Of a stretch of 64,000 nt of DNA, positions 38,740-41,565 are shown in pieces. The notes beneath the pieces are model-generated. The model was given only the letters and a program-made list of their open reading frames with translations, was not told where the DNA came from and searched no databases. Every line of letters begins with the position of its first letter. Position 1 is the stretch's first letter. The translations under genes were made by a program, and so were the position numbers. This DNA comes from Ferruginibacter sp. (lineage in GTDB: Bacteria; Bacteroidota; Bacteroidia; Chitinophagales; Chitinophagaceae), in contig JAHBTO010000003.1 of the NCBI GenBank assembly GCA_019638525.1, positions 310,001-374,000 of the forward strand, in the 5' to 3' direction.

Positions 38740-39327
38740 TTATTTAAGCATTTGTATCCGGTTTACATATTTGCCAATAACATCAAACTCCAGGTTTACA
38801 GTATCGCCGGTTTTTAAAACGTTCATGTTTGTATTATTATAGGTGTACGGTATAATGGCAACAGTAAAGTTGTTTTTACCTACATTAAACACAGTAAGGC
38901 TTACGCCATTTATGGTAATAGAGCCTTTTTCTATGATATAACCTGCAAATTCTTCGGGAAATTGAAAAATAAATTGCCAACTACCTTCTTTTTCCTCAAT
39001 ATTTAAGCATTGGCCGGTACAGTCCACATGCCCCTGTACTAAATGCCCGTCAAGCCTTCCGTTTAACTGCATACAACGTTCAAGATTAATAACAGAACCG
39101 GCTTGCCAGGTGTTTAAATTGGTTTTAAGCAAAGTTTCCTTTATAGCGGTAACCCTGTGTAAACCATCTTTAATTTCTTCTACGGTTAAGCAAACCCCGT
39201 TGTGGCTTAAACTTTGGTCAACCTTTAGTTCATTAGATATAGCCGATGCCACCCAAAAAGTTTTATTGCCACCTCCAGGTATCACTTCGGCAACTTTACC
39301 TGTATTTTCAATAATGCCTGTAAACAT
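38740..39327 (-). CDS. ribE: Riboflavin synthase, alpha subunit
   Basis: 195 aa. It has the duplicated lumazine-binding domains: the first with FTGIIENTGKV at residue 2 and SLSHNGVCLTVEE near 40, the second with GHLVQGHVDCTG near 94 and GSITINGVSLTVFNVG near 137. It dismutates two 6,7-dimethyl-8-ribityllumazine molecules to riboflavin. Length is slightly below the usual 200-220. It converges with the acyltransferase, with 1 base between stops, and is divergent from rpsU. Confidence 0.94.
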   Translation of the reverse strand: MFTGIIENTGKVAEVIPGGGNKTFWVASAISNELKVDQSLSHNGVCLTVEEIKDGLHRVTAIKETLLKTNLNTWQAGSVINLERCMQLNGRLDGHLVQGHVDCTGQCLNIEEKEGSWQFIFQFPEEFAGYIIEKGSITINGVSLTVFNVGKNNFTVAIIPYTYNNTNMNVLKTGDTVNLEFDVIGKYVNRIQMLK

Positions 39328-39380: not shown

Positions 39381-39388
39381 TATCTTTG
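39381..39388 (+). promoter_or_regulatory. rpsU: -7 element TATCTTTG of rpsU
   Basis: TATCTTTG followed by GCGCCC gives a predicted start near 39394 and a leader of about 29 bases that contains the Shine-Dalgarno sequence. Confidence 0.65.
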
Positions 39389-39404
39389 CGCCCTTAATTC
39401 ACTT

Positions 39405-39413
39405 AAAGGAGGT
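39405..39413 (+). promoter_or_regulatory. rpsU: Perfect Shine-Dalgarno sequence of rpsU (AAAGGAGGT)
   Basis: AAAGGAGGT is fully complementary to the usual 16S rRNA 3' end ACCUCCUUU. The AGGAGG core ends at 39412, ten bases before the ATG at 39423. I see no comparable sequence in front of the other genes of this window, such as tuf, rplJ or rpoB. In Bacteroidota the anti-SD is masked by bS21 and neighbours, and the bS21 gene is the exception that keeps a strong SD, allowing autoregulation. Confidence 0.85.
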
Positions 39414-39422
39414 ATATATTTT

Positions 39423-39617
39423 ATGTTAATAATTGATTCAAAAGACTGCGAAAACATTGACAAGGCGCTCAAAAAGTATAAAAAGAAATTTGAGAAAAGT
39501 AAAGTGTTATTGGAGTTAAGAGACAGGCAAACATTTACCAAACCTTCTGTTCGCCGCAGGCAGGAAATACTGAGAGCTATATATAAAGAGCAGGTTTCTT
39601 CTGGCAAATTTGAATAA
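39423..39617 (+). CDS. rpsU: 30S ribosomal protein bS21
   Basis: 64 aa. It has the typical S21 features: DSKDCENIDKALKKYKKKFEK at residues 5-25, LLELRDRQTFTKPSVRRRQ near 32-50 and a basic helix ending KEQVSSG. S21 binds the 30S platform near the 16S 3' end. In Bacteroidota it contributes to hiding the anti-SD from mRNA. The strong SD directly upstream fits feedback control: ribosomes lacking S21 would expose the anti-SD and translate rpsU more. It is followed by the xer gene and hpf in the same direction. Confidence 0.95.
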   Translation: MLIIDSKDCENIDKALKKYKKKFEKSKVLLELRDRQTFTKPSVRRRQEILRAIYKEQVSSGKFE

Positions 39618-39683: not shown

Positions 39684-40583
39684 ATGCTTCAAAGTGATCA
39701 ATATCCAATACAACCGTTTATCAATTACCTTAAATTTCAAAAAAGGTATTCACAGCATACTATTGTCTCGTATCAAACCGACCTTAGTGCTTTTTTCAGC
39801 TTTCTGCAGCAACAATTTGAAGTTTTAGAACTTAAGGATATAAAAACTGTTTATATACGCTCGTGGCTTGCAGAGTTAAAACAGCAGGGGCTTGAAGCAA
39901 AAAGCATCAACCGGAAAATTTCATCCTTAAAATCTTTTTTTAAATATAATTTGAGGCAACAACATATTACTGTAAGCCCAATGGATGCAATTATATCTTT
40001 AAAAATTAGCAAGCGCCTGCCTCAATTTGTAAATGAAAAAGATATGCATGTGCTTTTACAACATGTTGAATTTCCGGATACTTGGGATGGCCAAAATGAA
40101 AGATTGATTATTGAGCTTTTGTATAATACCGGCATTAGGCAGGCAGAACTTATTGGATTAAAAGAAATGCATGTTTCAAAAAATAATAACAGTATAAAAG
40201 TTATAGGAAAAGGTAATAAGGAGAGGATTTTACCGGTAAGTAATTATCTGATGAATTGTATACAGGATTATATTGCTGCTAAGAAGAAATCAATTGAAAC
40301 AGGAGATGGGGTTTTACTTGTATTAAAAAATGGCAAAAAGCTATATCCCAGGTATGTGTATAATGTAGTAAACAAGTATTTGAATATTATAACTACAATT
40401 GATAAAAAAAGCCCCCATGTACTTAGGCATACATTTGCCACCCATTTAATGGAAGGAGGGGCCGACTTAAATGCAGTTAAAGAATTACTGGGCCATAGCA
40501 GCCTGGCAGCTACTCAAATTTATACCCATAATACCATCGAAAAGCTGAAAGATATACATAAAAAAGCCCATCCTAAAGCCTAA
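39684..40583 (+). CDS. Tyrosine recombinase, XerC/XerD family
   Basis: 299 aa from ATG 39684, the usual size of Xer enzymes. The N-terminal SAM-like core-binding domain begins FINYLKFQKRYSQHTIVSYQTDL (split over residues 11-33). The catalytic domain shows the Arg in YNTGIRQAELIGL near 155, Lys in VIGKGNKERILP near 177, HVLRHTFATHLMEGG near 248, LGHSSLAATQIYTH near 272 with the nucleophile Tyr. It probably resolves chromosome dimers at dif. The conserved rpsU-xer-hpf neighbourhood argues against a phage integrase. C versus D cannot be told apart here. Confidence 0.9.
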   Translation: MLQSDQYPIQPFINYLKFQKRYSQHTIVSYQTDLSAFFSFLQQQFEVLELKDIKTVYIRSWLAELKQQGLEAKSINRKISSLKSFFKYNLRQQHITVSPMDAIISLKISKRLPQFVNEKDMHVLLQHVEFPDTWDGQNERLIIELLYNTGIRQAELIGLKEMHVSKNNNSIKVIGKGNKERILPVSNYLMNCIQDYIAAKKKSIETGDGVLLVLKNGKKLYPRYVYNVVNKYLNIITTIDKKSPHVLRHTFATHLMEGGADLNAVKELLGHSSLAATQIYTHNTIEKLKDIHKKAHPKA

Positions 40584-40789: not shown

Positions 40790-41089
40790 ATGAACTTAAA
40801 CATTCAGACTGTACACTTTGATGCAGACTCAAAATTGGTTTCGTATATCGAAAAAAAAGTTTCAAAACTTAACCAGTTTCATGATAACCTTATTAAGATT
40901 GATGTGTATTTAAAGCTTGATAACATAGTGCACAAAATAAAAGATAAGGTGGCTGAAATTAAAGTGCTTATACCACGTCACGAATTTTTTGTAAAACAAT
41001 CGTCTAAATCATTTGAAGAAAGCTTTGACCTGGCACTGGATTCACTAATTAACCAAATTAAAAGAAAGAAAGAAAAACAGGCTGCCTAA
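40790..41089 (+). CDS. hpf: Ribosome hibernation-promoting factor, short form (HPF/RaiA)
   Basis: 99 aa. Motifs: LNIQTVHFDADSKLVSYIEKK at the N-terminus, KIDVYLKLDN near 42 and the basic KVLIPRHEFFVKQSSKSFEESFDLALDSL region near 62-90, matching the beta-alpha fold of short HPF. It blocks the mRNA and tRNA channels of idle ribosomes and promotes 100S or inactive 70S forms. The long-form C-terminal dimerisation domain is absent. A strong terminator follows. The gene neighbours rpsU, another ribosome-availability factor. Confidence 0.92.
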   Translation: MNLNIQTVHFDADSKLVSYIEKKVSKLNQFHDNLIKIDVYLKLDNIVHKIKDKVAEIKVLIPRHEFFVKQSSKSFEESFDLALDSLINQIKRKKEKQAA

Positions 41090-41196: not shown

Positions 41197-41227
41197 TTTT
41201 GCTATTAATCATTTTCTCTTACCTTTG
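41197..41227 (+). promoter_or_regulatory. Promoter of the tRNA-tuf operon
   Basis: -33 TTTTG (41197-41201) and -7 TACCTTTG (41220-41227) with an 18-base spacing. The core TTACCTTTGCC (41219-41229) is followed by TTCCC, similar to the rplK and rpoB promoters of this window. Confidence 0.72.
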
Positions 41228-41293
41228 CCTTCCCAAAAAATAGGGGTGTTTTTGTGTGGCCTTTATTTTTTGATATTAAGTTCTTATAAATAT

Positions 41294-41366
41294 GCCGAAA
41301 TAGCTCAGTTGGTAGAGCAACTGATTTGTAATCAGTAGGTCGCTGGTTCGACTCCAGTTTTCGGCT
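41294..41366 (+). tRNA. tRNA-Thr (anticodon UGU)
   Basis: Full cloverleaf of 73 nt. Acceptor GCCGAAA (41294-41300) pairs with TTTCGGC (41359-41365). The anticodon arm is ACTGA-TTTGTAA-TCAGT, giving TGT. T arm GGTTCGACTCC. It is the first tRNA of a Thr-Tyr-Gly-Thr-tuf cluster, and its 3' part is the source of the copies that follow. Confidence 0.97.
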
Positions 41367-41403
41367 CAAACAAGTTCTTAAAATAAGTTGAGAAAAGGAG
41401 AAA

Positions 41404-41462
41404 GGTAGTGCATCCCGACAAGTAAGTCGGGAAGATCGCTGGTTCGACTCCAGTTTTCGGCT
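41404..41462 (+). pseudogene. Truncated tRNA-Thr-like copy 1
   Basis: From GGTAG (D loop) to the discriminator T it parallels tRNA-Thr(UGU): GGTAGTGCA versus GGTAGAGCA, then TCGCTGGTTCGACTCC and TTTTCGGCT are identical. The anticodon arm is replaced by the 7-bp palindrome TCCCGAC/GTCGGGA with a 6-base AAGTAA loop. The 5' acceptor strand is missing: the upstream sequence (GAGAAAAGGAG) does not pair with TTTCGGC. It cannot be a working tRNA. Confidence 0.75.
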
Positions 41463-41499
41463 CAAACAAGTTCTTAAAATAAGTTGAGAAAAGGAGAAA

Positions 41500-41558
41500 G
41501 GTAGTGCATCCCGACAAGTAAGTCGGGAAGGTCGCTGGTCCGACTCCAGTTTTCGGCT
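41500..41558 (+). pseudogene. Truncated tRNA-Thr-like copy 2
   Basis: Same structure as copy 1, shifted by 96 bases. It differs by GGTCC in place of GGTTC in the T arm, which breaks the universal TTC of the T loop, and by AAGG for AAGA before TCGCTGG. This further shows loss of tRNA function. Confidence 0.75.
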
Positions 41559-41565
41559 CAAAGTA

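Follow-up and report, generated by a model that had tools for sequence, protein, structure and literature searches.

In Flavobacterium johnsoniae the tail of the 16S rRNA is held in a pocket of the ribosomal proteins bS21, bS18 and bS6 (PMC9976891), and autoregulation of bS21 by ribosomes that lack this protein, a model of Jha et al. 2021 (as cited in PMC9976891 and PMC8710568), has been shown in that species (McNutt et al. 2023, PMC9976891). Truncation of bS21, the exchange Y54A or depletion of the protein raised expression of an rpsU'-gfp reporter 3-fold to >4-fold, while reporters without a Shine-Dalgarno (SD) sequence hardly changed; ribosomes with truncated bS21 (bS21 being largely missing once they were purified) initiated more quickly on rpsU mRNA, those that contained bS21 made poor use of strong SDs, and in a dipeptide assay in vitro at 37 C the bS21-truncated ribosomes had no rate advantage (all reported in PMC9976891). 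The same paper credits about half of the Chitinophagales with an outstanding rpsU SD, describes a natural covariation of Chryseobacterium type, in which an anti-SD UCUCA occurs with a matching rpsU SD, and reports strong SDs before rpsR, the gene of bS18, for Bacteroidales, Cytophagales and Sphingobacteriales.

The genome studied here belongs to another order than F. johnsoniae, the Chitinophagales, and resembles it in an extended SD before rpsU that pairs more strongly than -13 kcal/mol, in few other SD-like sites, and in tyrosine 54 of bS21. It differs in its 16S tail (AUACCUCC, the family tail, as against ACACCUCC in F. johnsoniae), in its leader (GGAGGTAT as against GGAGGTGT), in the pairing energy (-16.0 as against about -20 kcal/mol reported for F. 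johnsoniae, the two values coming from different programs), and in the kind of evidence, since the loop is read from sequence here and from cell tests there. By examining the locus in a window of 64,000 nucleotides (the whole stretch of DNA that was analysed), the strength and rarity of its SD within the genome, and the rpsU leaders, rpsR leaders and 16S tails of relatives, we propose that the SD of rpsU probably works as the sensor of a bS21 feedback loop.

The rpsU locus and its extended SD

The features of the locus are as follows.

38740-39327, minus strand: riboflavin synthase-type gene (PF00677, 156 bits), divergent from rpsU
39381-39388, plus strand: TATCTTTG, probable -7 promoter element of rpsU, assigned by sequence pattern
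39389-39422, plus strand: predicted short rpsU leader of about 34 bases, placed from the promoter-like element
39405-39415, plus strand: extended SD AAAGGAGGTAT, 11 contiguous bases complementary to the family 16S tail AUACCUCCUUU
39423-39617, plus strand: rpsU, encoding bS21 of 64 aa (PF01165, 54.4 bits; TIGR00030, 40.6 bits, cut-off 28.95)
39582-39584, plus strand: rpsU codon 54, TAT (tyrosine), counterpart of the residue mutated in F. johnsoniae (Y54A)
39684-40583, plus strand: Xer-type tyrosine recombinase (PF00589, 118.6 bits; TIGR02224, 305 bits, below its cut-off of 335.15)
40790-41089, plus strand: hpf, HPF/RaiA-type ribosome hibernation factor (PF02482, 67.6 bits; TIGR00741, 40.5 bits, below its cut-off of 40.9)

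A perfect 9-base SD before rpsU had been described in an earlier note on this DNA, and AAAGGAGGT does lie at 39405-39413, ahead of the ATG at 39423. The length is understated, as the family 16S tail pairs with 11 leader bases; the spacing of ten bases holds when counted from the end of GGAGG, the gap between the 9-base sequence and the ATG being nine. The own assembly (3.4 Mb in 33 contigs) yielded no 16S match, and the tail used for pairing was taken from relatives of the same family (f1), whose tails, where read, contain AAUACCUCCUUUU in the form GGAATACCTCCTTTT(T); we infer that the tail of this genome equals theirs. Against this tail the rpsU leader forms 11 contiguous pairs at -16.0 kcal/mol (RNAduplex), beyond the published threshold of -13 kcal/mol, which was set with another program, free_scan.

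The leader length of about 34 bases follows from a predicted start of transcription, presumed to lie just 3' of the -7 element. We read TATCTTTG as such an element on the basis of TAnnTTTG, which we take to be the consensus, and the related pattern TAnnTT[TC]G occurs no more than 75 bases from the rpsU start in 49 of 51 family f1 genomes. Folding of the stretch 39389-39480 is weak (z +1.94) and is equalled or bettered by 197 of 200 shuffles, which leaves the leader open.

The order of genes is the riboflavin synthase-type gene (minus strand), rpsU, xer, hpf, four tRNA genes, tuf and a further tRNA gene, followed by secE, nusG, rplK, rplA, rplJ, rplL, rpoB and rpoC; two further ORFs are interspersed. 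Family libraries were searched with rpsU, xer, hpf and the riboflavin synthase gene, and the other names come from reading translations. Across the loci compared, the riboflavin synthase-type gene lies upstream of rpsU in divergent orientation in 53 of 76, and in loci long enough to judge, xer comes after rpsU in 73 of 74, with hpf next in line in 71 of 74. The clustering of hpf with rpsU, to which the earlier note drew attention, is thus a conserved arrangement; shared control is not borne out, as hpf stands behind xer and has a leader without an SD (+0.4 kcal/mol). The Xer recombinase is not part of the proposed control. On the minus strand at 41205-41561, an ORF that overlaps tRNA-Thr contains a segment of about 30 aa three times; it is probably an artefact of repeats located between the tRNA genes.

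Rarity of SD-like pairing within the genome

Pairing was scored for 365 other genes in 464 kb, about 14% of the genome (the window and twenty 20-kb stretches), in bases -24 to -5 before each start and, as a mock, 40 bases upstream. Gene calls were crude: ORFs of at least 100 aa beginning with ATG, taken longest first and with no start-site model. At or below -4 kcal/mol there were 39 starts against 75 mock regions, at -6 12 against 23, at -9 3 against 4, and at -10 3 against 0; weak SD-like pairing is hence under-represented at starts, which fall below the mock at -4 and -6. A single one of the 365 genes reached -13 and none -14, so that rpsU, at -16.0, is the strongest. When a start anywhere in the initial part of an ORF was allowed, 8 of 365 genes were at -10, 1 at -13 and 0 at -14. 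That the genome otherwise ignores the SD, as had been claimed, agrees with these counts, which cover the 464-kb sample, not the whole genome; four of the genes named in that claim all score weaker than rpsU (tuf +0.5, rplK -6.5 or -0.5 depending on the start chosen, rplJ -4.1 and rpoB -2.4 kcal/mol).

These counts bear on the reading that the site is an ordinary strong SD, raising rpsU translation at all times with no feedback. Basal initiation, too, would gain from such pairing in an open leader; but starts show less SD-like pairing than the mock (the 12 against 23 at -6), strong SDs served bS21-containing ribosomes of F. johnsoniae poorly (PMC9976891), and the reading does not explain why relatives carry strong SDs on genes for pocket proteins, rpsU or rpsR (see below). 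We consider an ordinary SD unlikely, if still worth weighing beside a sensor.

The word itself is not scarce. AGGAGGN{3,10}ATG occurs 78 times genome-wide against 75 for the reversed pattern, and AAAGGAGG is found twice in the window (1.78 expected) and 64 times in the genome (77 for the reversed pattern). Base composition predicts about 1.0 nine-base match to the 16S tail before an assumed 3000 genes, so the nine bases first noticed are not striking alone; for an 11-base match the figure is 0.05. The rpsU site is unusual by its length, place and conservation, not by the word alone.

Among the ribosomal protein genes, of which a subset was scored, rpsU exceeds rplE (-10.0 kcal/mol) and rpsR (+0.1). 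The site before rplE (L367:4848-5438, same genome) may be a real, weaker SD, and rplE is listed among the genes with SDs in some Bacteroidia (PMC9976891). Other strong matches in the sample precede a 109-aa ORF with no Pfam family (-13.0) and feoB (-11.3, about 17 bases from the ATG). Genome-wide, AAAGGAGGT followed by an ATG occurs at six sites, one of them rpsU, and these six showed no SD regulon. Another stands before an ABC-ATPase ORF, of heme type by reading of its translation, which we rejected as a second SD-controlled gene: the site also codes for Lys-Gly-Gly at the end of an overlapping upstream permease. Of the remaining sites, also set aside, one falls within a longer reading frame and three head ORFs of fewer than 40 codons.

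Conservation among relatives

All 118 genomes of a phylum sample and 142 of the 148 in an order sample gave PF01165 hits, and 289 rpsU leaders (160 + 129) were read, picked by family and by known 16S tail. Ferruginibacter (92%), Flavihumibacter, Sediminibacterium and Chitinophaga are among the named records closest in rpsU, and family f1 is most likely Chitinophagaceae. Within this family GG[AG]GGTAT lies no more than 26 bases from the rpsU start in 47 of 51 genomes (own included), a control stretch and the opposite strand each giving 0 of 51; the own genus has GGAGGTAT in 14 of 16 genomes, and of the four f1 genomes that lack the motif (G007, G239, G336 and G414) G336 and G414 belong to it. 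The spacing from motif to start varies from 6 to 16 bases across the 47 leaders, and among those long enough to be aligned (32 of 47) the SD block is the invariant part. Beyond the family set, 50 of 80 named relatives carry the motif (22 in the form GGAGGTAT, 28 in the form GGGGGTAT, which retains a G-U pair) and 30 lack it, several Chitinophaga included; at least three of the 80 overlap with the sampled genomes. Strong leaders, that is, leaders at or beyond -10 kcal/mol, are few in two other families (3 of 45 in f2 and 0 of 18 in f35). The bS21 proteins of f1 all have Tyr54 (51 of 51), and the best matches of the own bS21, bS18 and bS6 are chains of 9i5v and of the F. johnsoniae structure 7jil.

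Could the site be a relic, or a chance match without function? A 9-base match is to be expected about once per 3000 genes, and the site has been lost several times among relatives; yet 11 bases are expected only 0.05 times, the core is kept in 47 of 51 f1 genomes while the surrounding bases vary, and in one genus the SD has changed along with its 16S rRNA (see below), all of which makes this reading very improbable. Autogenous control is common among ribosomal proteins, and free bS21 might bind the leader and repress its own mRNA, but a short leader that folds worse than nearly all shuffles (197 of 200 at least as good) and whose invariant part is the SD block (32 of 47 leaders aligned) leaves a bS21 repressor with hardly any likelihood.

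Changes of SD and 16S tail together

A pattern for the 16S tail matched 75 of 393 genomes of the order. The patterns fix part of the tail, and 16S tails changed at those bases are therefore missed; a few matches were chance matches elsewhere in the genomes and were excluded from the tail set. A pattern with T after GGA matched 1 of 148 genomes and was replaced, A being present after GGA in nearly all 16S tails read in the order.

Leaders and tails agree within several families: with the tail ACACCUCC, GGAGGTG or GGGGGTG stands before rpsU in five of six f5 genomes read (one has no SD), and with AUACCUCC, GGAGGTA is found in both f3 genomes whose tail was read, as in f1. This agreement is confounded with descent. 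The stronger case for a leader that follows its 16S tail is genus g115 of family f2, a family that we take to be probably Saprospiraceae. Here the tail is AAUACCUCUUUUU (CCUCU, not CCUCC) in five of five copies from three genomes, and all three rpsU leaders have AAAGAGGTA, with AGAGG (rpsU loci L129, L124 and L393; 16S ends L440 and L441). With their own tail these leaders form 9 contiguous pairs at -11.4 to -11.5 kcal/mol, and with the usual tail 6 pairs at -8.5; shuffles reached 9 bases in 6, 4 and 21 of 5000 cases for the three leaders. The remaining 42 of the 45 f2 leaders (45 loci in 43 genomes, the usual tail being assumed where none was read) miss -10. Each g115 leader is preceded by an apparent tRNA gene 3' end (GACCCCCAGCGGAATCACA), so that rpsU may be transcribed with the tRNA there.

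In genus g97 (family f43) the leaders have AAAAGAGGTAT in five of six genomes read (L205, L209, L210, L434 and L435), which would fit a CCUCU tail; a 16S tail was found in 0 of 8 g97 genomes.

Genus g115 thus resembles Chryseobacterium (PMC9976891) in that the rpsU SD changes together with the 16S anti-SD, and differs from it in belonging to another order and in pairing CCUCU with AGAGG, one base being changed; the own genome, as far as its relatives tell, has the usual family tail, unlike Chryseobacterium. We found no report of a CCUCU anti-SD with a matching rpsU SD in a search of the literature that took in passages of PMC9976891, PMC8710568 and PMC10783764, and the co-change may already be known.

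rpsU and rpsR as carriers of the SD

In family f35 none of 18 rpsU leaders reaches -10 kcal/mol and 8 of 10 rpsR leaders do (rpsR loci L376-L381, L337 and L343; rpsU loci L145-L162). In f33 both genes reach it (4 of 4 rpsU and 4 of 4 rpsR leaders) and in f42 neither does (0 of 4 and 0 of 4); rpsR leaders at -10 number 0 of 11 in f2 and 3 of 15 in f1. A role of rpsR as a strict substitute for rpsU was rejected, as a strong rpsR SD is about as frequent where rpsU has a strong SD (7 of 21 genomes) as where it lacks one (11 of 36; 57 leaders in all); a shift from rpsU to rpsR is clear only in f35. With an SD on rpsR, a pocket-protein gene, f35 and f33 are like the Bacteroidales, Cytophagales and Sphingobacteriales (PMC9976891), and the own genome, whose rpsR leader (+0.1) has no SD, is unlike them. 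The same literature search (passages of PMC9976891, PMC8710568 and PMC10783764 included) returned no report of such a shift inside the Chitinophagales, which may nevertheless be known already.

Changes of the anti-SD core

Leaders of rpsU were read for 47 of the 75 tail-matched genomes, the other 28 being f1 genomes with the usual tail. Among the 25 with an rpsU SD at or below -10 kcal/mol, core changes occur only in the three g115 genomes, where the leader matches them; among the 22 with no strong rpsU SD, four cores are changed (UCUCC in G129, G147 and G397; UCUCU in G157; loci L443, L444, L445 and L442, respectively). Uncompensated changes are thus seen in 4 of the 22 genomes and in 0 of the 25 (Fisher p 0.04, with relatedness uncorrected). 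Two observations count against a simple decay: CCUCC is kept in 18 of the 22 genomes lacking a strong rpsU SD, and G147, with a changed core, retains an rpsR SD of -7.5 kcal/mol. The anti-SD must have other duties, and contacts with Era and the pocket have been named as further roles (PMC8710568). A tie between loss of Tyr54 and a changed anti-SD was also considered and rejected: G157 has Met54 and G129 His54, but G147 and G397 keep Tyr54, and the coincidence in the former two is suggestive only.

A probable feedback loop in the Chitinophagales

In the loop that we propose, ribosomes lacking bS21 would expose their anti-SD, which would pair with AAAGGAGGTAT at 39405-39415 and lead to more bS21 being made; in ribosomes complete with bS21 the anti-SD would stay within the pocket of bS21, bS18 and bS6 and rpsU would be started poorly, so that synthesis would fall once bS21 is plentiful. 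That AAAGGAGGTAT acts as the sensor is favoured by the 11-base match at -16.0 kcal/mol, its rarity, its conservation in f1, the open leader, Tyr54 and the co-change in g115; the 4 of 51 f1 genomes and 30 of 80 named relatives without the motif, the few strong leaders in f2 and f35, the variable spacing, and the absent rate advantage of bS21-truncated ribosomes at 37 C (PMC9976891) count against it. Given Tyr54, the matches of the pocket proteins, the open leader and the results from F. johnsoniae, the same loop is likely here, and by this analogy we infer that it runs in this organism.

The earlier note had suggested such a loop, and its outline agrees with the published model (PMC9976891) and with the extended SD, the scarcity of SD-like sites, Tyr54, bS18 and bS6, the conservation and the co-change; the loop so stated is already in print (PMC9976891). 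The present analysis extends this published example of specialised ribosomes in bacteria to a member of a family of Chitinophagaceae type, with a pairing of 11 bases.

More tentatively, we raise a possibility that we hold to be rather doubtful as yet: that among the Chitinophagales the SD/anti-SD loop is a movable control that outlasts changes in its own code. On this view anti-SD (CCUCU) and SD (AGAGG) switched together in one genus, the control passed from rpsU to rpsR in one family, and lineages with no strong rpsU SD are beginning to lose the anti-SD; the guarding of one feedback gene would then be among the chief reasons for an anti-SD to persist in these SD-blind bacteria. The survey thereby bears on why bacteria that ignore the SD retain its partner on the ribosome, and the co-change in g115 and the shift from rpsU to rpsR in f35 are natural variants with which this retention could be tested.
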